Shown: positions 10,035-47,187 of the stretch, in pieces | Layout of the letters: each line of letters starts with the position of its first letter | Position numbering within the stretch: position 1 is the stretch's first letter | Assembly (NCBI GenBank): GCA_963920765.1 | Contig: OY987247.1 | Location: 12,000,471-12,064,470, forward strand | Direction: 5' to 3' | Source: Ulota crispa | Lineage: Eukaryota > Streptophyta > Bryopsida > Orthotrichales > Orthotrichaceae | DNA: 64,000 bases | Notes under the pieces: model-generated | Seen by the model: the letters and a program-made list of their open reading frames with translations, nothing else | What the model was told of the DNA's origin: nothing | Database searches by the model: none | Program-made: the position numbers and the translations under genes

Positions 10035-13000
10035 ATGGAAGGACTCCGCACGGTTGCACTGGAGCTGCAAGACGAAGCTGACTTTGCGAGTGTTGCCAAT
10101 GGCGATGGAGAGATCTCGATTTGTGGATTTGGTTCGCTGCTTTCAGGTTTGTTTAATTTAGGTTGAATCGTTGGTGTGGCCAGTGCGTGTGTGTATGTTG
10201 TGTTGCGTTGTGTTGTGTATGTTGTGTTGCGTTGTGTTGTGTATGTGTGTGTGTATGTGTGTTGTGCATGTGTGTGTATGTTGTGTTGTATATGTATGTG
10301 TTGTGTATGTGTGTGTTGTATATGTATGTGTTGTGTATGTGTGTGTTGTGTATGTGTGTGTTGTGTTGTGTTGTGTATGTGTGTGTTGTGTTGTGTTGTG
10401 TACATGTGTGTGTATGTGTGTGTATGTTGTGTTGTGTATGTGTGTGTGTATGTGTGTTGTGCATGTGTGTGTATGTTGTGTTGTATATGTATGTGTTGTG
10501 TATGTGTGTGTTGTGTTGTGTTGTGTGTGTGTATGTTGTGTTGTGTATGTGTGTGTACGTGTGTTGTGTATATGTGTGTACGTGTGTTGTGTATATGTGT
10601 TTAAGTGTGTTGTGTATGTGTGTGTGTGTTGTGTTGTTTGTGTTGTATTGTGTTGTGTATGTGTATGTGTGTGTGTTGTGTATGTGTGTGTATGTTGTGT
10701 TGTGTATGTGTGTGTATGTTGTGTTGTGTATGTGTGTGTGTATGTGTGTTGTGCATGTGTGTGTATGTTGTGTTGTATATGTATGTGTTGTGTATGTGTG
10801 TGTTGTGTTGTGTTGTGTGTGTGTATGTTGTGTTGTGTATGTGTGTGTACGTGTGTTGTGTATATGTGTGTACGTGTGTTGTGTATATGTGTTTAAGTGT
10901 GTTGTGTATGTGTGTGTGTGTTGTGTTGTTTGTGTTGTATTGTGTTGTGTATGTGTGTGTGTTGTGTATGTGTGTGTATGTTGTGTTGTGTATGTGTGTG
11001 TATGTTGTGTTGTGTATGTTGTGTTGTGTATGTGTGTGTATGTTGTGTTGTGTATGTGTGTGTATGTTGTGTTGTTTGTGTTGTGTATGTGTGTGTGTTT
11101 TGTGTATGTGTGTGTGTATGTTGTGTGTGTGTGTTGTGTATGTGTGTGTATGTGACCATTGATCTTACGTAGCTGATTTGTTGTTATGAGATGGAAGAAA
11201 AGAGTGCTCTGTATACGTTTCCGAACTTGCTTAACTTCAGAGTAGCTGTGCTGCGCGATTTTCGTCGCGTGTTTGCTCACGTCGCTCCAGTGTTTCTAGA
11301 TCGAGGGATTGCCAACGTGGAGACCAAGGTAGGTCACTGGATCCTATCTTTGTGTTGGAACCTTTGCTAAGAATATATTTCAACTGATTCCACTTGTGCA
11401 ATTGTATGCCATAAGTCTTGTACCTTTTGAGAAGGCTGCAACATTTTTTCGTGGAGAAATTTCGTTTACAATTCAAGCTATAAAAGCTCTTTGGATATGA
11501 AGGTGTGTAACCTTTGCAAAAAAATCAGAAACTGTAAAGTCATTTAGTATTAGTGTAAGTGTATCACTTACTGTGGACTAAGCTAATGATTTTTTTTCTT
11601 ACATTAATTGCCTGATAAGAATAGCGATTTTTAATACTGGTATGGCGCTCTAATGCTAAATTGATATCTTCAGTTTCTAAGCATCATGGCATACGAGGTA
11701 AAATTCTCGAACTTGTAAAATTATTTGGAAGTTTGATTTTAGAAGTTTGAGCCGCGTAATAAAACCTCAGATTTTTATGATGGTGCTAAAATTATTAGAA
11801 CTTTATCTACCAGCAGAAAATTGAGTTTTCAATTCATAAAAATAAGTTTTTTTTTGAAACTGTTTGTAACTTTCGCCAGGCGACTATATAAGTTCGTTCT
11901 TGCTTTTTAGAGGTAGGATCACACTTTGTGCTTATTCAGGAGAATCTTATGTGAAATATTTCTGATACCTAAAGCATTATCCGTTCCGGGTAGAACTCAA
12001 ACCAAATGTTTGACTTCTGATGCATACTATCTGCAGGAATTATCTAGTCTGAGTGTTGAGCCTTGCGTGGGAGAATCCATCGTTGTAACTGTTTTTGAAA
12101 TATCAGTTGCTGAGGTATGAACACTATCTACCAATTTGAGAACGTCTTTGAGAACTTCAGGTAAGCTTTGATATCAACTAGTGAGCGAGGACCACGTTGC
12201 TTATATCTGGCATGATTGTTTGCAGGTTCCAGCATTTATTGAGAGAGAGCACGAATTTCGGTTTCTTGCGGTAGGTGACGCGTTTTGCAACAATTCTGTG
12301 CAATATCCTGTATAATCTTGTGTTCACCCCTCAACATCCAACCTTTATCGTCATTTTAACACTCGTTTTGGCACGTATCTGTTGTCTTTAAACTATTTTT
12401 TGATTTTGGATCGTAACGTATATGAAAGTATACCCAAAAATCTATAGTTCTTCACTGGTGCCAAATAATCTAATTATGCAAGCAATGCAAAGCAGGTTGT
12501 CAAAAGACTGCTTGTTGAACTAGGTTTTTTTTTCATCATTTGAAATTAGGTGACAATGCGAGTCTCTAGGTATACAATTTCTTTTATATAAATGAAATGA
12601 TGAAGTTGATACATCCGAAAGAAATGAATATTATCGTTGAATAAATGTTCACGAAATCAGTAGTCGAAGCTTGTTTTTTTAAACCATGTCACTAAGATAG
12701 TTATATATTTTCCTGATCAGCTCTATATCCATTGAAACAAAGTGCATTGAAAAGCTATTTTGAGAGTGTATCTTTCTCTTGTTCCATTCGTATGCTGATT
12801 CTGCCTTGGTTTGTTTCTGTTAACCTGAAGTTGAAGTCAAAGGCCCAATTGGGGCTGCTTGGATGTTTGGGGTTAAAGTTGTTACTTTCAAAGCACATTC
12901 AGGTTCGTTAGCTGAGATCGTCACATCCTAAACTTGCCTTGCACCACAGATAACTGTCGAAGACAAAGATGGGAAGCCCTTCTCTCAGCGAGCCGTGAGT

Positions 13001-14811: not shown

Positions 14812-17800
14812 GCGCGTCACAGGTTCATGGACGTAGAAGAACATGTAGGCCTCCCTCTCGTTGGCAAAAACTGAGTCTTCTGATATCTGTCAAACAAATA
14901 AAACTCAAGGTTAGTACAAGGAAGACAAGGTATGGTCTCCCAAAATTCTCATAAACCAGTCCAAAAAATCTGTAGCTAAAAGTACGTGCATCATCGTTTG
15001 CAGGATGTAAACCACGTAAACAAAAGCTACCAATTGTTTAAATGGTAGCTTTTGTCTATCTACCCATACAACCTTTAACTTTTGCAGATGGTACCCAAAT
15101 TAACCTGTTTTTTGCTACATGGTTGTCCTGATGCAAGCACCAAAATAGCAGTAATGGATGTCTCTATCTGACATTCATTGCTACCTTTCATGTGTAAAGA
15201 CTCGGAAATTTGAGTAACAACATAGACAGAAAGGGTCTTACATCAGAGACCGTGGAGTCGTCACATCTGAGCCACGTGTCAGCTTCAGGATCAAGCACGT
15301 CGGCCAGGAAATGGCCAGCTGAGGCGGTACATCCCAAATGGTTCACAACCCCGTACAACTTGTAACAGGTACTCACGTTTGGGGAAGCCACATTAGAAGG
15401 TGCAAAATAGTCTGGTAATTCAAGGCAGTTTGAGTTCGAAGGCGTTCCATAGTTCATGCTTCCATCACTGCTGCTGGTAAAGGAACCCCAGTCTAAGCTT
15501 CCACCACTCGCTGTTGTACAAGTTGATGCACTCGAATCACGGCTTGCAGAATAGAGAGCATCACTCAGTGTCGGGCTCCAAAACTTTTGCTTTTCTTGTG
15601 CACAAAATGGTCCTGAAGGTGAGAAAAAAACTTTAGAGTAAGAAGTAAGAGAATACGAAATACTTTAGAAACCTGAGATTGAATGGTAACATGGGGTTGG
15701 CGGACGGGTTTTGTCCAATGCATAACAAAAAAAATGCTTTGTAAGATGGGAAATAGCTGGTTTGAGACATGGTCCATCATGGAAGGCAAAAAAAACCAAA
15801 CCTCATTAAATGCACTCATATTTGGACGTATCCCAAATTGTCAGAAGATTCATAAACATGGTGTTAGGTTCCCCTTCTAGCAATTTTCATAAGAGCAGCA
15901 TGCACTGTTGACTCTTCCGCAACTTTTGAAATCAATATTATGATGAGTGGGCACTACAATACAGTGATTCTTGGATAAGGTCAACAACTTTTGAAACCAA
16001 TATTATAATGAGTGGGTACTGTAGCACTACAATACAGTGACGCTTGGATAAGGTCCATAGCTTGGGCAAGAAAAAGACATTGACCATATTCAAGCGTTAA
16101 TCATAAACAAGCACTCTATTTAACTAGGCCTAGAACACAAAAAAAATTGGGATCTTTACAATATCCAAACATTTCTCTTACAAAGGTTGACCTTATTCAA
16201 GCATCACTGTAGAGGGCAGCCACGGTAACCACAGCCCGGCGGTTAACTCCTAAATGCCTGAGGCACCAAATTCTGATGCCTCAGGCATTTAGGGGTTAAC
16301 CTCTTAGGAGACAAAGTGCATGAAATTACATACAAGTGGAATCTCTTATGAAGGGGAATTTAAGCAAGGGCTGCTTGGATAGGATATATTAGAGAAGGAG
16401 ATCTTACCGATATCAAGGTGAGAGTTGAACTTCACAGGTGCGGAGACTTTGGTGCAGGGGACATCACGGTCCATATGTAATCGCTTCAATTGAAGCACTA
16501 GCACGTGTGGCAGTTTCAGAATTTCAGCCTGTGCTTTTGTATCTTCACATCCACATTTTTGGCACTTGCGAGACATAGTGGTCTCCTGCAATCATCATAT
16601 TCAACCAGACATAAGATTTCAACGCACCAAAAACATCAAATTCTGTATTTTGCAATTAGCCCCTTACAGACAAAATTGTGGGGACAAAGGTAGGATAAAA
16701 ACACCCGTGTATCATGAAAATCTTATTTTGTTCACTTTCTCTTGCTTGATTATTTTACTGTCAATTTTTCCCCACCTGAGATAGGTGAGAATAACTGCTT
16801 GACTAAACTTGCGGGAGTGTCATGGCAATCGAGATTTCTTAAGAGTGAGGAACCTTTTACATGCATAATTAGGATAGCACATAATTGCTTCAAGGTCCAA
16901 AAACATTAACTGCTCTGTAATTTTAGTCCCAAACACTAAATCTGCTTGCAACTTTACTTCCACAACAAAGTTTGACTTATCATGAAAAAGTCTGTGCCAG
17001 ATCACGTAACTCTTTGATGATAAAAATTTGTAACTTTGAAACATCTGGTAGTGCAAAACTATTTCATCACAAAATGCACTCGCCAAGTACAAACGTAGGA
17101 AATTGTGAGTTCAGATTTAAATGTAATGACTGCGACGAACTGGAAATTACAATGCTTCGTTAGGAATGGTGCAAGATCAACACACCTGAAAGTAAAGGTT
17201 CAACAGAGACTCCAGGCTGCAATTCTGGGATTCATCGATCCTGCGAACACCACCCAAATCCATAAGTTCACATGCATTCTAGAGCGAATAGTAAAGGATC
17301 TCGACTCACATCTTTGTCCTCAATCTAACCCTCAAGTATCCAAGCTACAAGTAAATATTCCACTTGAGAATAAAATAGTGGATTACAGTAACTTTCAAAA
17401 ACTAGTTTTCAGGAACGTAGACATAATTGATCCATTCTTACTCTAGGCAATGTACATCGTGTTGTAATAGAACAAAATGAAAATAAATAAGATTTAACTA
17501 ATACAATGATAATTCCTATTACTACGTTAATAATTAGGTTAGTTCCAATATTAAAGTTCCATTCTAAATAATTGGAATTTGATATGAACGGAATAGAAAA
17601 ATACCATCCACCTAAATAAAGAGTTGTTATAAATGATGAAGAAACAAATGAATTTAAATAAGAAAGCAACATAGAATAACACAAATTTTATACCTGAATA
17701 TTAAGTTTGATAACCTGCGACTAAATCTTCTTCTGCTTCTGGTAAATCAAAAGGTAATCTTTCACATTCAGCTAAAGAAGCAATGAAAAAAAGCTAGAAA

Positions 17801-25411: not shown

Positions 25412-25886
25412 TAAATCTAGCTAAATTTTGCAAAATTTCTATCTCAAATTTGGTTGCACTAAAACTATATTGTGAAAACAAATAGGAAAATTTAAAAAAT
25501 AGCCAAACTCTCAAGATGCAAAAGTGCCTTTGAGGTGAGGTGCAATTTGACGTGCTGCCCTATTGTTGATGGGACCTCATATTAAGACAACTTGAGAAGC
25601 CATCAATCATATTTGCTTTCCCCCCACTTAGCTATAATGCAAAGTGTAAATGCACTCTTTAATCACCTGCCCTCTCTCAAACAACTACTTGTAGTTAATG
25701 TGTCTTGGCATGGTTTTGCACTTGTATGCATGTACTAAATAGTCTTTTAGCGGCTTCTTGACAAAATTGTTAGTGCACACTTTGCAAATGTCCAAGTTTA
25801 GCATTTTAACTAACAAAATAAAACAACTATTGAAGATTGATGTTAGCCCCTAAACCCTAGGGATGGTCATCGTGCCTGCTTGTGTA

Positions 25887-27226
25887 CAGTGGCCTCCAAC
25901 AAACCTTGTTGGTTTTTTTTTCCGGACCTTCTGTTAGGTCAGATTTGGCCACAAAAAAGCCCGTATGCACAGATTTCAAGCCCAATTGTTTTGAAAATTT
26001 GTAGACACCTTCATTACCACATTGAGCTACTTTGATAAAAGTATCAAAGCTTTAGAAGTACAACTTTGCATGTAACAACAAAAGAAGCTAGAAGTATGCT
26101 ACCAACAAGTTGACCCTCTTTTTGCAGCAATCACCGCTTGGATTTGATCAGGAAGTATGTCTACTAAGCTCTGCAACCATTCTCACTAAAGTCCTTCCTA
26201 TATTGCTTGCAAATGTGCCCAAATCTTGTCATCATTTCTAACTTTAGGATGTTTCTGTAACTCTCCTTTCATCTTGGCCCAAACATTCTCAATAGGGTTC
26301 AAATCTGGACTGTTTGCTAGCCATTCAAGCTTTTCAATCAAATGCAAATCCCTCCATACCTTTGGCGCCTTTCATCAATGGACTGGGGCACCATCTTCCA
26401 TCATAATGCGGTTGCTAATGGTCAGAAAAAAGTGAATTAACTCACCATCATAGACTTGGTCCACAAAATCAACTGCAATGCAACGTCTTTTGGCCATGCG
26501 AACAAGTTTGCTCTTCTTGTTGCTTGCAAACGCTCCCCAAATCATCACTAAAGAATGCCTGGACTTGAAAGTTGGTGCAAGACAGTCCATGTCGTACTTT
26601 TCATAGGCCCTTCTCCATACCAACATTTGGTGAAAATTCTTCCCAATTTCAAAAGTTGACTCATCAGTCCAAATGATGCTAATCCACTACTGCATAGTCC
26701 AATTCTTGTGTTGCAAGGCAAACTCCAACCTCTTTTGTTTTATGCACAACACTAAAAAAAGGTTTTTTTGGTGCAACTCGCGCAAATAGTCCAGTAGAAT
26801 GAAGAGCCTTTCTAACAGTGTTAGAGCGTACCTTCTTTGGCAGAGTGTTTGTGATTTTGCCCAAGGTAATATGTTTGTCGCTTTTGATCTTGCGCACCAA
26901 GGTCCTCACATCCCTCTCATTCAATTTTGTAGGTCTACCCAGATTCTTCTTTGGCTCTAGTGAGCCTTCTTCTTGAGCATGCTTCATAACCCTCTGAATT
27001 TGTCTATCTCATACCCCTAGCAAAGCTGCAATCTCAGGCATTCTTGTCCTTGAAATCTTCATTCCAATGATACAAGCCTTCACCTGAACACTCAAGCAAA
27101 CCCTACCCAAAGTTTGAGGATCCATAGCAACTCACAGAGAAAGAAAAAGTTCACAAACGGAGGTTGAGGGTTTGAACTGGGAGAGAGATAGTCGGTTTCT
27201 TCGACAAACATTATTGGAGGCCATTG
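25887..27226 (-). mobile_element. Tc1/mariner transposon, DD34E type, decayed transposase
   Basis: The 1,340-bp element has inverted ends CAGTGGCCTCCAA (25887) and TTGGAGGCCATTG (ending 27226), each flanked by the TA target duplication. The minus strand encodes a Tc1-like transposase: start MDPQTLGRV at 27122, a helix-turn-helix region with GRPTKLNERD near 26930, the first acid in WTDESTFE near 26665, the second in MEDGAPVH near 26385, and the Glu in SPDLNPIEN near 26285. I count 34 residues between the second Asp and the Glu (DD34E). Decay seen: a TGA before DRQIQRVMKH near 27007, at least one frameshift near 26750-26700, and two adjacent TGA codons after DGAPVH. It is inactive by itself. 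Plant mariner-like elements are usually DD39D. Confidence 0.9.
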
Positions 27227-27228
27227 TA

Positions 27229-34884: not shown

Positions 34885-37800
34885 CTAGGCTCTAGGACTT
34901 TGTTTTAAGCCATAAAAAAATTTGTTTAGTTTGCAAACTCTGTTTTCTTGGCCACAAACCTCAAAGCCTGGTGGTTGTCGCATGTATACTTGCTCCTTCA
35001 GATATCCATGTAAAAATGTGGTTCTAACGTCCATGTGATGCATTCCCCATTGTTTTGTAGATGCAATGGCTATTATGGTTTGAATAGTTGCCCACTTAAT
35101 CACTAGGGCAAAGGTCCCTCTGAAGTCTATATCGTGTGTCTGTTCAAATCCACGCGCAACAACTTGCGCTTTCTTGCGGTTAGGTTCTCCATTGCATCCC
35201 AATTTAAGCTTGTATATCCATTTACAAGTTATTGCTCTTTTGCCTGGTTATAGAATGTCTAGAGTCCAGGTCTTGTTTTTGTTGATCGAGTCTATCTCTT
35301 TTGTCATTGCTAATCTCCATCTAGGGTCAACGAAGGTTTAACAAAACGTGAGTGGTTCTTTGTCATTGATAATCACGTCTTCAGGTGACTGCAATAAGAG
35401 GCAGGGTTTGGAGTCTTTGGTAGTGATGTACAGGTCATAGCCATCGAGACGTACACTCCGAGCACGAGGTCTGGCTGATCGCCAAAGTGGTGCTGGCTTA
35501 GGAGGTGACAAGGGATTAGGGAGACCGATTGTGGGAGGGTCTTCCTGTGGCTTGTCGCCAGGGGTGTCTGGTGGTGGCGAGATGAGGAATGGGTCTGTAT
35601 CATGTATGACTGTAGGAAAGGGTGATGGGGCAGGGCCAAGGTTGGGAGTGATCAGTTTGCTAGGGTTGTAAAGGATGTCGTCATAGAGGGGCTCTGTGGT
35701 TTCTAAGCACTTTGGGTCAAAGTTTGCTTCATCAAATCGAACGTCACGACTGATTATGATTGTCCTAGTGGCTGGGTTGTAGCATTTGTAAGCTTTGCTG
35801 TTTTCATCATATCCTACAAATATGGTAGGGATAGAGGTGGGGTCAAACTTCTTTTTTTTGGATGTGGAAATGTGGCAGTAGGCAATGCATCCTACAACTT
35901 GGAAGTGGCTGATGTTGGATTTGATGCCTGAGTATGCTTCTTGTGGTGTAATGAGTTGTAGGGCTCTAGTTGGAGATCAGTTTTGTATATAGTTAACTGT
36001 ATTTGCTACCTCCTGCCAAAAGTGTTTTGGGATTTGTGTGCCGGATACTACTGTACATATGGCTTTGAGCAAGGTTCTATTTTTCCTTTCTGCTACGCCA
36101 TTCTAGTGCGGTGAATAGCCTGCAGTGAGCTGCCAGTGAATACCCTTTGATTTGCAGTATTTAGTGAATTCCTGTGAGAGGTATTCCCCTCTGCAATCCA
36201 TATGAAGGGCTTGTATTTGGTGGGTGTATTCAACCAGTTTGTGGAATTCTTGGAATGCTACTAGGGTTTGCAACTTTTTTGCCAAAAAATACAACCATGT
36301 TTTTCTGGTGTAGTTGTCAATAAAGGTGAGGATATATCTATTGCCAATTCGAGAAGGTATTGGCATGGGTCCACATAAGTCTCTATGGACAAGCTGAAGG
36401 GGTTGGGATGTCATGGTGGTGAGTGTTTTGGGAATTTTATCCCTGGGCATCTTTTCTAACATGCAGGGACTACACACATGCTTGGTGAGGGGAAGATTTG
36501 GGGTACTTGTGACTAGGGAGCAATTTGTCATATGATATAGTGACTGAAAGTTGAGGTGGCCAATTTGCTGGTGCCACATTTCAAAGTCTTGTTGTGTTGG
36601 TGTAGGGGTGGTATTTGCCAAAAGTAATGCCTTGGGTTGTGTTGGTAGCAGGTGGCAAGCATGGGCGGACGTTGGAGATGTGGCAAGCTTTCTCTGCAAT
36701 CTGTATAGCTTGTTATGTATATCATGTGTGCTGTACAGAAAGACTTGGTTTGAGATCATGTTGTTGTATATGAGGTAGCGATTGGATGTAAACAAGATTT
36801 CATAGCCCAAATTGGTGAGCTTGCCAACTGAGAGAAGGTTAGTGGTTACACCTAGAAAGTAGAGAATGTTTGTGATCGTTTTTATTGCACCAGTAACACC
36901 AATAGTTTCTACACTACCTTTGCTTGCTATTGCTAGTAGGTGACCTCCGGTAGTCTTGATGTTGGTGGTGGGCGTAGGGAGAATGTTGGTGAGGAGCAGT
37001 GCATTGCCAGTGACATGAGATGATGCACTAGAATCCAAGAACCAAGGTTCTTCAATGCTGTTGGCGGTGATGCATGCGTTAACAATTTTGTACTATTCAT
37101 CTTTGACAAATGCAGAGATGCAATCCTTGGCGTGGGCGACTTCATCGTATGTATCGACTGGGTCATGGGTGTTGTCTTTGTCAACAGATTTGGTGATGTT
37201 GACTGCACGCGCTCGATCAGACTGGAGCTTGGCAATTTGGGCGGTGATGTGGATGAGTTGCTCTTCTAGCATGGCTTGCTTGCAATTGCGTGCAAAGTGG
37301 CCCCATTTTCCACATTTGTGGCACTGAGTAGTTGATGATGAGAACTGAGGGGTGCGGCCTGGCTGGGGTGCTTTGCTTGGAGTGTAGCTCCATCCGGGGC
37401 GGGTGAAACTGCGTCCTCCGCCGCAAGGTGTGAAGTTCCTAGCATAATGAACTTCCTCGTCTGGAGCATTGGTAGATTCTAACGCCTAGTTGTGTTTTTC
37501 CTGCAGAAGGAGACCTTCAAGGGCAGAGAACGTGGGAGATGGGACTATGCTTTTTTGAATTTGACAAAACACATAACAACTCCTAGGTAGGTTGGAAAGT
37601 GTCTGATCAACTAGATCTACATCAAAGATCTGTGCTCCGAGACATGCTAACTATGTGGTGATTGCATTGATCTCTTGCAAGAAATCAGCTACTCTACAAC
37701 CTTTGCCAAAGCGTAAGGAGTGAAATTTTTACTTAAGTGCTAGGCGGCAAGAGGAGCTATTGACATTGCACATAGCTTCCAGACGGATCTAAATCATGTG

Positions 37801-41521: not shown

Positions 41522-44500
41522 ATGGCGGTGTCCATGGCGGCTTCAATGGCTGCTGCTGCTACTATATCGTTGCCGTCCGCCGCTGGCTCGCGGCTCGCTC
41601 TCTCGTCACCGTCATCTCCCGCCGCCGCGCGTCCGTGTCCCGCTTACTTGCGTGTGCTGCCATTGCTCGCCGCTCGCCCTAATTCCTGCTCTCCTTGCAG
41701 CTCAAGTGAGTCCTCGTCTCCCTCCAACCCTCGCAATTCCTCTAAGATAGGAGGCTCTAAAATGGAACACCTCCTCAAATGTACACTAGTTGTAAGGTTT
41801 GTACACCCATAAGCGTCAAACCAAGGGTTTTGAATATGATGAGTATCAATAAACAGCTAGCAAATTATAGGATCCTATTAGGAACAAAAATAATAATGAG
41901 TTTGCACTTTCGAATGTATTATTTGGATACTGTGAGAATAAGTTGTGAATTTTTACAGAGCAAACTGCCATTGCACCCAAAACCACTATTAAGATTTCAT
42001 GGTACACATGTTGTACATCCTTGTTATTACATCTATTCACTTCTACAGATTTTCCAAAGATTTCAGAGGTGATGGTTATAGGGCACAGTGGTGCTTATGG
42101 GTGTACATACTTTACATGTTTTTCATAGCCCTTTAACAATGTACAGGTGATGTACATTTGAGGAGGTGCTCCATTTTAGAGCCCTATGGCCTTTCCACTT
42201 CAAAATTTCATAACTAATTCCACAAAGCTCCAAAAAAATATGAAACAACTTGGGTTAGATGCCAAATCTTCTTGTCTTTCAAGGAAAATTCACTGAAAAG
42301 ATTTCAAGAAGTTTCACCTACCCAAAATTCAGTTTCAGTCCTTAGATGCTCCATTTATGAGCCTCCTACCTTACTTGTTACGTTTCTTTCCACTCTTCCA
42401 TTCTCTCTTGGGGGGTTTTTTTTTAATCCTAAACTTTGGTGCGTTTGCTTTGGCAGCCGCAAGCACGCGTGCGCGGCCTTGCAGTGCCGCGTTGAATGGA
42501 GGCAACGCAGTGAACACCGTGGATGAAGAGGAAGAGCTTCGACTGCAGGAAGAATCCACGACGCCAAAAGAAAAGAAGCTGAACCTCCGAACTGACGTTC
42601 GCAACATCGCCATTGTTGCTCATGTTGATCATGGCAAGACCACTCTCGTGGACGCCATGCTTCGACAAGCCAAGGTACAGCCTCACAATGCTCATGTGCC
42701 ACGTGGACCTTGCATTTCTAACTTCGCTGTGGAAGCAAAACCAGAAGTGAGAACTTTAGCTTTGCGAGGAGAAATTTGATTCTCACTGGCGTCGTGTGGT
42801 TTTAAAATTAGGTTTTCCGGGACAACCAAGCAGTTCAAGAGCGCATTATGGATTCCAATGATTTGGAGCGAGAGAGAGGGATTACTATTCTTAGCAAGAA
42901 CACTGCCATTCGGTATAAAGGTACCAAGATTAACATTATTGACACGCCCGGGCATTCGGACTTCGGTGGTGAAGTGGAGCGCGTTCTCAACATGGTCGAT
43001 GGTGTGCTCTTGCTGGTCGGTGCTTTTCCTTTGCAAATTTCTCAGCTTTTCATGTGCAAATTTTTAAGCTTTTCTTGTGCAAGTTTCCTCAGCTTTCGTG
43101 TTTAAGTTTCTTCAGCTTTTCCTCTGCAAAAGTCTTCAGCTTTTCTTGTGCAAGTTTCCTAAATCGTTTCCTGTGCAAGTTTCTTCAGCTTTCCTTTGCA
43201 AATTTTTAAGCTTTTCCTGTGCAAGTTTCTCTTCAGCTTTTCCTATGCAAGTTTCTTCAGCTCTCTTGTGCACGTTTCTTCAGCATTCCTGTGCTCGTAA
43301 CGTTAAAAAAGCACACACAGTCCGACCTTTGGCTTGGAATGACAAAACTCTTTGGCAAATCAGGTTGATTCTGTGGAAGGACCAATGCCGCAAACTAGGT
43401 TTGTACTGAAGAAGGCTTTGGAGCTTGGTCAGACTGTGGTGGTGGTTGTGAATAAGGTAGACAGGCCTTCAGCACGGCCTGACTACGTGGTCAACACCAC
43501 TTTCGAGTTATTTGTGGAACTGAATGCTTCCGATGAGCAGGTTCGTAAATCTTTGTGCAAATTTTGAAGTCTATAAGGATGTCATCACTTTACCTATCTC
43601 ATGACATGCGTTGGTTTTTATGGTATGAGACTGAGAGATCTTATCTTGTGCAGCTTTTGTTGGACTTTTTGTACATGGGCTAGAGTTTTTTTATTTACCT
43701 GTATTTTTTGTGTGTTTGTGGATTCTGTTGCAGTGTGATTTCCAAGTTGTGTACGCCAGTGGTATAAATGGGACGGCCGGATTGGAGCCAGATCAGCTGG
43801 CAACCGATCTGGAGCCGTTGTTTGAGTCGGTGATTCGGTGTATTCCAGAGCCTAAAGTTGACCTCGAAGGTCCTCTCCAGATGCTTGTATGCCTTCCCCG
43901 CCCCCCACTACTCTTACATTCTTTTATTTTTTTACAGTTTTAATGATTGTCAAGATGGGTCTAAGGCTTTAAAAATTGATTTGTACAATTTCTCTTCAGT
44001 TTACTGACATTATTTTCTCTTTTTTTCATTTTTTTGATGATATAAGATTACGAATTTGGATTATGATGAGCACAAGGGTCGTATTGCTATTGGACGCGTC
44101 CACGCTGGCCGCATTAGGAAAGGCATGGAATTGAAGGTAAAGTTCATTCTGTTTTTTGTTTTATTTTTTTGTTGTTTGCTCTACATTTTGATATTGAAAT
44201 TGCTCTATCTATTCCTTGAGAAGAGGTTCCTTTATTTCGCCTTTTGAAATTTGGATTGTTGTTCGAATACATAGGTCTGCACTCCAGATGACCGTTGCAG
44301 GAACGCCAAAGTGAACGAGCTTTTTGAATACGATAACTTTGCTCGAGTTCCAGCCAGTGTTGTTGAGGCTGGCGATATTTGTTGTCTCTCAGGAATCGAC
44401 GATGTTCTGGTATTGGTTCTAGCTCTCATCAGCTTCTAACAAAACACTACCTATTACCGTGCTTAAGTACTTGTTGATCTTTATTTCTACATTAAGGCTT

Positions 44501-47187
44501 TTTTGTTCTTTTTATTTTGAAAAGTGGCTTAGTTTTTAGAATTCAGATATTTTCTTTTTGTCATTTCAACCCTTTTTAATGTTTGTTTTGCATTGTGTGT
44601 TTCCACAGATTGGAGAAACTTTAGCTTGCAAGATAGATGGGATAGCACTGCCGACAATCACAGTTGAGGAGCCGACCGTAAGAATGTCGTTCTCAGTCAA
44701 CGTGTCACCTTTTGCTGGTAAAGAGGTACGGCTATTTTTACATTTTTTAACAATATTTTCTTAAAAGTTTTTTGTTGAGCTTTGTTTATAGAAAGGGTTA
44801 GAATCATAACTGGTAAGTTTTTATTTTGCACAGGGTAAGTACGTGACAAGTAGGAATTTGAGAGACCGGCTGTATCGAGAGTTGGAGAGGAACTTGGCTA
44901 TGAAGGTCGAAGATGGAGAAACTGCCGATACTTTCATTGTCAGCGGTCGTGGCACTTTGCACCTCACCATCCTCATTGAAAACATGTAAGTTTAAAAAAA
45001 ATGCTTTTTGTATTCAAACTTGAGTTATTATTTTTTTCTCAAAACTTTCACTACATATTATCATTTAAGGCCTAGATGTTCAAGTTTCATTTTGGTTTGT
45101 TTGTTTTGCAGGAGGAGAGAAGGTTATGAATTTATGATTGGGCCTCCGAAAGTTATTAACCGTGAAGTGAATGGCAAGAAGCTTGAGCCCTTTGAGGTAA
45201 AGTCATGCTTAACCATACTAACCCTGCAATGATAAACAGAACTTTCCATACAAACTTTTTCTTAATGATCTTTTTTTTTTGTAGAAACTTGTCCCAATAT
45301 CTCTATATTTGATTTAGTTAATATTATTTAGCTTATGTCTACTACTACATATGAGTTTTTCAACGGTGCTGTTTTAAATGTTGTTTTTGTGATTTTGCAG
45401 GATGCTATTGTGGAGGTTCGTGAAGAGTATGTAGGAGCAGTGGTGGACATGTTGGGCAAGCGCCGGGGTCAAATGTTGGATTTGTCAACTGCCGGGTAAG
45501 TTGAATTTGTCATTCTTTACATGTGTTCTCCTATGTATAGCCGTTCTAGTCGATTTTAGTCTATTTTAATTGTCATTAATTGAAATTTACTCTTTTTTGT
45601 TTTATCAGGTGTTTGCAAGTCAAGTTGAAGCTCTAGTGCTTGTTGTCTCGTTATCTCCGCTGGTTGTGTGAAAGTTTTTGCACGGATACATTCTTCTTAT
45701 AATTTGAATACGTTTTGGTCCATAGAAGTGTGTTTTTAATGCTTAAACTGGCAGTTTTTAGTATTATTTTTGACGCCGTGCAAATTCTGTAGGTCGGAGA
45801 ATACGACAGTGGTGAAGTACCGGATGCCGACACGTGGTTTACTTGGGCTGCGAAACGCCATTCTCACCGCCACTAGAGGCACTGCTATTCTGAACACCAT
45901 ATTTTTCGGTTATGATACGTGGGCTGGAGAGATAAGCACTCGTGAACAAGGATCTTTGGTAAGATACCGACACATCTCCTTCCAGTTTGTAACAGCCAAT
46001 TCAAAACTTGAACTTTATGATGTAGTATGGTCTTTCTTGTTTCAAAATCCCGACTCAAAACTTCATAGTATAATATCATCCTTCTAAGTGTATGAAAACC
46101 TACTCAAAACCTGAACTTTATGATGTAAAATCGTCCTTCTAGTTGGAAATCTTACTCAAAACTTGAACTTCGGGCTTTGATATCGTCTCTTCTAGTTACA
46201 AGTCTTGCTCAAATTTTGAATTTTATGGTTTACTACTACTGTAGCACAGATGTGAATTTTGCTTACTTTTTCTGCAAAGCAATGATCTTTCTCTGGAAAT
46301 ATCTGTGTTTTTTTGCTTGTACTGCAAGCATTTATCAATAAAGGATTCATTATGAGAAGATGGAGTAATTGCCTGAGGGGGTTGGGTTGGACAGGTGGCC
46401 TTTGAGACGGGACCGACAACCTCGTATGCGTTGTTCAGTTGCCAGGACAGAGGCAACCTGTTTTTGGCACCGGGGGTGCCGGTATACAAGGGCCAAATCA
46501 TTGGCATTCATCAAAGGCCCGGAGACTTAAGTTTAAATGCGTGCAAAAGGAAGGCTGCAACCAACGTACGCTCCAACAAAGAGGCTACAGGTACTTCTTG
46601 CTCTTTCTCTTCCGCTTGGCCTTAAACTTTAAGAAGAAATAGTTTTGTGGTGAACTGGCATTATATATTTTTCCGCCCAAAGCATCGTTGAGTTGCTTTT
46701 AGAGAGGATCACTCTTTCATTGTTCTTTGCATGCAGAGAAAAGATAGTTTAAATATTAGAGTAGGCTCACTCCGTGTTTTGTGTGACTGCATGGTCATAA
46801 AGCCTTTCTCCAACTTGTTGCCGATCTTTGATCTGATTCGTTTTAGTTGTACTCACCTATGAATGTTCGTTTCTTCGTTCTTCTAAAACGTGTTGGTCAA
46901 ATTTTCAGCCCCTAACAACAACAATAAAATATTCTACCTCTTGTATTTTTGTGTAAGAAACTTTCAAGCTTATTGAATAATGTCATATGTTGAAGTTATG
47001 GTACGCTCTAATACTGGATCTCTAACCAAAAAATTGATTTCTTTTGGTGTGTGCAGTTGTTTTGGCATCCCCAATAGAGCTGAGCTTGGATGATTGTGTG
47101 GAGTACATTCAGGAAGATGAACTTGTGGAGGTGACTCCCCAGAGCATTCGAATGTGTAAAAACCCGAAGTTGCTCAAGAAGCGGTAG
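41522..47187 (+). CDS. typA: Chloroplast TypA/BipA translational GTPase, 14 exons, 700 aa
   Basis: Exons 41522-41705, 42457-42674, 42812-43015, 43364-43540, 43734-43886, 44047-44136, 44275-44409, 44609-44725, 44834-44985, 45112-45196, 45401-45495, 45793-45958, 46395-46590 and 47057-47187 join in phase to 700 residues. The first ~70 residues are rich in Ser, Ala, Pro and Arg and are a plastid transit peptide. The GTPase domain has AHVDHGKTT at 116-124, DTPGH at 178-182 and NKVD at 232-235. EF-G-like domains follow ([11 protein letters not shown], then [17 protein letters not shown]), then the TypA-specific C-terminus ([36 protein letters not shown]). The length fits plant homologues (about 675 in Arabidopsis SVR3, from memory). 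It binds ribosomes and acts in plastid rRNA processing, translation and stress tolerance. The donor after exon 3 (GTCGGT) is weak but fixed by the protein match. Confidence 0.95.
41750..42184. mobile_element. MITE in TypA intron 1, with a third isolated end
   Basis: Inverted ends GGCTCTAAAATGGA.CACCTC and CTCAAATGTACA occur at 41752 onward and as complement up to 42184. TA on both sides (41748-41749, 42185-42186) would fit a Tc1/mariner-type TA duplication, given a 2-base indel in the left end. A third, diverged copy of the end (complement of TAGGAGGCTCATAAATGGAG) lies at about 42345-42370, suggesting either a second decayed element or an internal rearrangement. It is fully intronic. Confidence 0.75.
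43021..43300. repeat. ~24-bp degenerate tandem repeats in TypA intron 3
   Basis: About ten units of the type AGCTTTTCCTGTGCAAGTTTCTTC run from just inside the donor to about 60 bp before the acceptor. Units vary by single bases and short deletions. Many contain TTTCTTCAG, an acceptor-like motif, but the protein match fixes the real acceptor at 43363. Confidence 0.88.

Follow-up and report, generated by a model that had tools for sequence, protein, structure and literature searches.

A fossil Tc1 (DD34E) transposon, most likely in a moss nuclear genome, with ends common to non-coding partners

We analysed a window of 64,000 nucleotides (the whole stretch of DNA under study) and found in it an element that is, with high confidence, a fossil autonomous Tc1 transposon (DD34E, IS630-Tc1-mariner group), most likely lodged in the nuclear genome of a moss and having its ends in common with non-coding partners. 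An earlier note on this DNA had called the element complete-length. This is true of the DNA, whereas the gene is broken: from MDPQ to GSTCW the transposase is interrupted by seven in-frame stops, and a single base more than in the copy L002 shifts its frame. The coordinates of the element, of its target site and of the pieces of its gene are given in Table 1.

Table 1. Positions in the window of the Tc1 element, its flanking TA dinucleotides and the remains of its transposase gene
Feature	Position	Strand	Remark
Left TA of target-site duplication	25885..25886		compared with related empty sites
Left terminal inverted repeat	25887..25909	+	starts CAGTGGCCTCCAACAA
Entire Tc1 element, 1340 bp	25887..27226	-	transposase on minus strand
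Right terminal inverted repeat	27204..27226	-	reads inwards CAATGGCCTCCAATAA; 1 base off the left repeat in the first 13
Right TA of target-site duplication	27227..27228		compared with related empty sites
N-terminal transposase part from MDPQ, helix-turn-helix region (HTH_Tnp_Tc3_2)	26682..27125	-	one in-frame stop; frameshift before its end
First catalytic piece	26378..26686	-	Asp1 26663-26665, Asp2 26393-26395
Second catalytic piece	26201..26371	-	Glu of DD34E 26288-26290, in PDLNPIENVW
C-terminal remnant, ends GSTCW	26102..26197	-	assigned by resemblance to L047 and L063 at their C-termini; two stops close to its start

The element carries two features that mark membership of the family, a TA target-site duplication and short terminal inverted repeats at a size of about 1.3–1.7 kb. 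Its left and right repeats agree at 12 of 13 bases, and its 24-base ends, with the TA counted in, are alike at 19 of 24 positions. The earlier note had placed both ends correctly but had read both repeats as CAGTGGCCTCCAA; the right one reads CAATGGCCTCCAA and is off at the third base. Such an end pair is by itself weak evidence, since TA-bounded inverted pairs of this quality are not rare in the window: 26 pairs alike at 19 or more of 24 positions and lying 300–5,000 bases apart were counted in the real window (several being registers of the same repeat), against 0–3 in each of 15 first-order Markov copies of it. What takes the element beyond chance is the Tc1 transposase between its ends, the occurrence of like ends on the related copies L002 and L004–L007, and four empty sites. 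In these five copies the ends are alike at 17–24 of 24 positions and the lengths are 1,341–1,346 bp with the TA, except for L006 (1,603 bp), which holds an insert. The terminal bases are CAGT/CAAT in the window element and L002, CAGC/CAGC in L004, CAGC/CAGT in L005, CAGT/CAGT in L007 and CAAT/CAAT in L006, while the outermost bases of the copy L003 are damaged.

Empty sites were sought with the joined flanks of the element as the query. The search gave 684 candidates, 40 of which were scored and listed, two of these being the flanks themselves. Four of the 40 listed matches span the junction (from query position 158 or 159 to 400, at 80–88% identity), and all four have a single TA where the window element has one on either side, which upholds the earlier claim of an intact TA duplication. 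This TA is followed directly by a second TA in three of the four sites, as in the flank of the window element itself; the remaining site has CA there. Two more flank matches (C2:10516278 and C5:3282647) begin at the junction without spanning it. The element therefore entered an older repeat and duplicated the TA in doing so.

The surroundings of the element hold several other features. Slightly to its left, at 25686–25846, lie 161 bases of a highly repeated sequence, 89–93% alike among the copies listed. A broken copia-type retrotransposon occupies 34888–37485 on the minus strand, its neighbouring frames holding RVT_2, SH3, rve, gag_pre-integrs and a weak zinc knuckle, and the RNase H domain of a gypsy-like reverse transcriptase lies at 253–750, also on the minus strand. 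On the plus strand, 42297–46084 has GTP_EFTU near its start and EFG_C near its end, and is perhaps a single translation-GTPase gene with introns. A piece of a ubiquitin carboxyl-terminal hydrolase is found at 15191–15664 (minus strand), and a TG-rich tandem repeat of almost 1 kb at 10183–11154, in a 2-kb bin with strong GC skew. A search of the whole window against Rfam at the gathering threshold gave no matches.

The transposase assigns the element to Tc1. The second Asp and the Glu are separated by 34 codons, two of which are now stops; this is the spacing given in the earlier note, and the acid is Glu at 34 rather than Asp at 39. Glu stands at +34 in most aligned related loci as well (spacing measured in query positions, inserted residues being removed), several decayed copies having lost a catalytic residue. 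Comparison of the transposase pieces with known protein families, which the earlier note had proposed, identified the helix-turn-helix region as Tc3-type (PF01498, HTH_Tnp_Tc3_2; E 7.4e-10, 39.4 bits, cut-off 31.5). The catalytic domain DDE_3 (PF13358) scored 47.5 bits, above its cut-off of 28.6, when the window copy was read through its stops in the genome search, while its separate unbroken pieces scored 13.2 and 28.3, under the same curated cut-off. As DDE_3 also matches in three of 14 prokaryote control genomes, a match to it alone is no proof of Tc1. For the protein of L002, a copy 91% identical to the window element, the best solved relative is Sleeping Beauty (SB100X, 5cr4; E 2.6e-20), with which its catalytic core aligns, and its helix-turn-helix region aligns with the DNA-binding chain of the Tc3 transposase (1u78; E 0.035). 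The motif at Asp2 is MEDGAPVH here as against HDNDPKH in Sleeping Beauty. In flowering plants the IS630-Tc1-mariner group is usually represented by DD39D elements (PMC4054914), but the chance that such a plant mariner-like element was misread here is negligible given Glu instead of Asp at +34, the motif PDLNPIENVW, the Tc3-type helix-turn-helix region and Sleeping Beauty as best solved relative.

The Tc1 element of the window would have moved, as would its family, by standard cut-and-paste transposition. A live transposase of about 340 codons would bind the ends, of about 28 bp, through its helix-turn-helix region; its DDE catalytic triad would excise the element and then insert it at a TA, duplicating the TA. 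Once inside the older repeat, the window copy lost its gene to transitions, stop codons and a single frameshift.

Copies in the source genome, which the earlier note had proposed to count, were sought in the assembly (274.8 Mb, 157 contigs), whose contigs C1, C2 and C4–C10 measure 15.8–41.4 Mb. The window element has 33 DNA matches, of which some are fragments of a single copy; nine reach at least 1 kb, the window's own included. The seven aligned copies form three subfamilies, the first made up of the window element, L002 and L003, the second of L004 and L005 (joined by L008 in the tree) and the third of L006 and L007, with K2P distances of 0.091–0.110 within subfamilies and 0.213–0.260 between them. 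Relative to the average of the first two codon positions, change at the third stands at 0.66–1.10 within subfamilies (five pairs) and at 1.18–1.75 between them (16 pairs), which indicates that the subfamilies split as working genes and that their copies later decayed neutrally. The transition/transversion ratio is 2.1–4.7 within subfamilies as against 1.2–1.5 between them, and CpG in the seven copies is at 0.25–0.43 of expectation, compared with 0.56 for the whole window. Transition-rich decay and low CpG are as expected of methylated DNA. The reading frame of L002 is open over 312 codons, a stop preceding its last 28 codons. Its protein gave 128 matches in the genome (127 of 404 candidates scored), and among the matches scored only L002 itself covers the full 312 residues of the query free of stops, so that no intact copy was found among them; a working copy may exist, since scoring reached 127 of the 404 candidates.

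The ends of the window element are also found on non-coding elements. When a single mismatch is allowed, the genome contains the pattern TACARTGGCCTCCAA 596 times and the reversed pattern 11 times. We took the 100 exact end sites listed (the list ending on contig C8) and paired adjacent sites facing each other within 3 kb. The 21 resulting pairs comprise the window element (1,344 bp with the TA), 17 elements of 889–961 bp and three of 83 bp; hence 20 of the 21 perfect-ended pairs, among 100 listed of 596 end sites, belong to non-coding families. Elements of the longer kind, of about 0.93 kb (L066–L071), were read on C1, C2, C5 and C8, none of them within the window. In all six, inverted repeats cover most or all of the length, with arms 81.5–95% alike; L068, for instance, consists of two 422-base arms plus a spacer. 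Compared by blastn with the window element they have only end sequences in common, up to 40 bases, and their longest listed open frames, flanks counted, do not exceed 113 codons. This family has at least 43 copies (41 long places listed from 40 of 2,807 candidates scored, plus L067 and L071). The 83-bp elements (L072–L074, on C8, C1 and C2) carry the same 18-base ends as the window element. The three that were read are near-perfect hairpins with RNA fold z values of -11.1 to -11.5, and the 29 candidates of a search with one of them yielded 56 matches when both strands are counted.

The resemblance of these ends to those of the window element is closer than to any others compared. Over the first 18 bases, the ends of the 0.93-kb family match the window element's at a mean of 17.8 of 18 positions on the left and 16.2 on the right, and those of the 83-bp family at 17.7 and 16.3; past 18 bases the 83-bp ends are unlike the window element's. 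The same comparison gave 11.7–15.9 with the ends of L004–L007 and 8.7–12.8 with eight loci of other lineages (L017, L019, L020, L022, L043, L046, L047 and L058), and clear ends were sought in the remaining Tc1 lineages of the genome and not found. The simplest reading of these end sequences is that both non-coding families were most likely mobilised by a transposase from the window family. Bari MITEs share their ends with an autonomous Tc1 relative. Foldback or MITE partners of DNA transposons have been described, such as Tetris in Drosophila virilis (PMC4079207) and the Bari MITEs (PMC4877112), and like these the partners found here are non-coding inverted-repeat elements. They differ from them in their moss host and in having inverted arms, 81.5–95% alike, that run across most of a 0.9-kb element. 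In the limited literature that we searched, as far as the sources cited go, we found no published description of moss Tc1 elements with palindromic or MITE partners.

The host was identified from its plastid and nuclear sequences. The plastid contig C157 carries psaA and psaB, and when its PsaA was compared with solved structures (84 sequences at the threshold used, the best 60 of which were examined) the highest score went to 8htu (1,733 bits), followed by 6l35, 7ksq, 7kux and 7xqp (1,713 bits) and by 9lut (1,698 bits). We take 8htu and the four entries after it to be photosystem I of Physcomitrella, and know of no liverwort entry in the solved-structure library. PF01000, which marks the alpha subunit of the plastid RNA polymerase, exceeds its cut-off in a single match, on the nuclear contig C2, and is not matched on C157; a plastome that has lost rpoA is a trait of mosses. 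The PsaA ranking and the nuclear instead of plastid rpoA together make a moss the most likely host, and not an early streptophyte alga; the earlier note had spoken of "early streptophytes". Among the 48 matches of the plastid PsaA and PsaB in the assembly, 46 lie on other contigs (the nuclear C1–C10), and four of these fall within open frames 230–259 codons long.

DD34E Tc1 elements in a moss are a known kind, of which the window element is a further example. PpTc1 and PpTc2 of Physcomitrella were described as such in 2014, in a paper that also reports fragments from nine angiosperm genomes (Liu and Yang 2014, PMC4054914). Both are expressed, and their transfer from fungi has been suggested; the cited part of that source gives no significant hits of similar elements in Marchantia, Arabidopsis and rice (PMC7466625). 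With a moss DD34E Tc1 published in 2014 and fungal transfer already proposed, the surprise that the earlier note saw in such an element in a plant is gone. By description, PpTc1 and PpTc2 resemble the window element in being moss DD34E Tc1 elements with a TA target; they have CAGT ends and one ORF of 338 amino acids (PMC4054914). Compared in the same way, they differ from it in length (1,584 and 1,709 bp, with 33-bp ends, as against 1,340 bp) and in age, their average identities of 96.3 and 96.6% contrasting with the old, decayed copies of the window family (PMC4054914). Mariner2_PPa of Physcomitrella (Repbase), a moss Tc1-mariner element likened to the window element by description, resembles an element of Pleurotus (P. 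ostreatus TIR_1) and is grouped with basidiomycetes, Physcomitrella falling within their clade (PMC4905642). PlantMar elements were not found in Bryophyta according to the cited part of PMC7325037, in which new Tc1-family sequences from 'archeaplastids' are mentioned.

The window family is one of several Tc1 lineages in this genome. A search of the genome with the PF13358 profile gave 134 matches (150 of 206 candidates scored). From 60 loci, eight duplicates of the same places and nine identical rows were dropped, and a tree was built from 43 host rows with Sleeping Beauty as the root. The host rows fall into two clades, one of five rows (support 98/98), four of which (L017, L019, L020 and L025) have a DNDPKH motif at Asp2, and one of 38 rows (100/100), in which this motif is mostly of the EDGAPVH type. 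The window family forms a single clade of 10 rows (97/96) inside the larger clade, which also holds lineages only about 40–50% identical to L002. The deep order of the tree is unsure owing to long branches, which were flagged for L010, L011, L014, L022, L023, L048 and Sleeping Beauty; and since the root is its sole outside row, the tree is silent on fungi, on animals and on which host clade is nearer to Sleeping Beauty. Three elements of the small clade (L017, L019 and L020) measure 1,571–1,590 bp and L022 measures 1,719 bp, the TA included; these lengths are close to those of PpTc1 and PpTc2, which is a lead only.

A recent horizontal arrival of the window element from a fungus or an animal appears unlikely. 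In its favour are published trees in which two Tc1 elements of Physcomitrella fall close to fungal ones (PMC7466625) and another element of that moss lies inside a basidiomycete clade (PMC4905642). Against it stand the seven aligned copies, which are 0.09–0.26 apart (K2P) in subfamilies that diverged under selection, and the lineages about 40–50% identical within the larger clade, which favour long residence or repeated entries; Tc1 diversity within one genome likewise argues against a single recent arrival. Searches of sequence collections gave no confirmed relatives: the L002 protein had four pattern matches, none confirmed, in IMG/VR, a viral collection silent on plants, animals and fungi, and no match among the plasmids of PLSDB, silent on the same groups. 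An alignment of nine open pieces from nine loci had 56 pattern matches in IMG/VR and 18 in the prokaryotic GTDB genomes, none confirmed in either, both collections being silent on fungi. That the window sequence is contaminating animal or fungal DNA, a thought suggested by animals and fungi being the groups in which Tc1 is most common, can be set aside with near certainty, since the window sits within a 22.9-Mb contig, its family or the non-coding partners are matched on every one of C1–C10, and the element's flanks are repeats of the same genome.

What the fossil Tc1 element adds to the known moss examples is a moss genome with old and diverse Tc1, in which non-coding partners outnumber the dead autonomous family whose ends they share. 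It is a tentative proposal, to which we give somewhat less than even weight, that mosses outside Physcomitrium harbour a long-lived and diversified Tc1 (DD34E) radiation kept in moss nuclei, its lineages being about 40–50% identical in one genome, and that at least one lineage of it has abundant near-palindromic partners. If this is true, mosses are an old home of Tc1 and not occasional recipients from fungi. Other moss genomes would allow descent of moss Tc1 elements within mosses to be tested against their repeated arrival from fungi.
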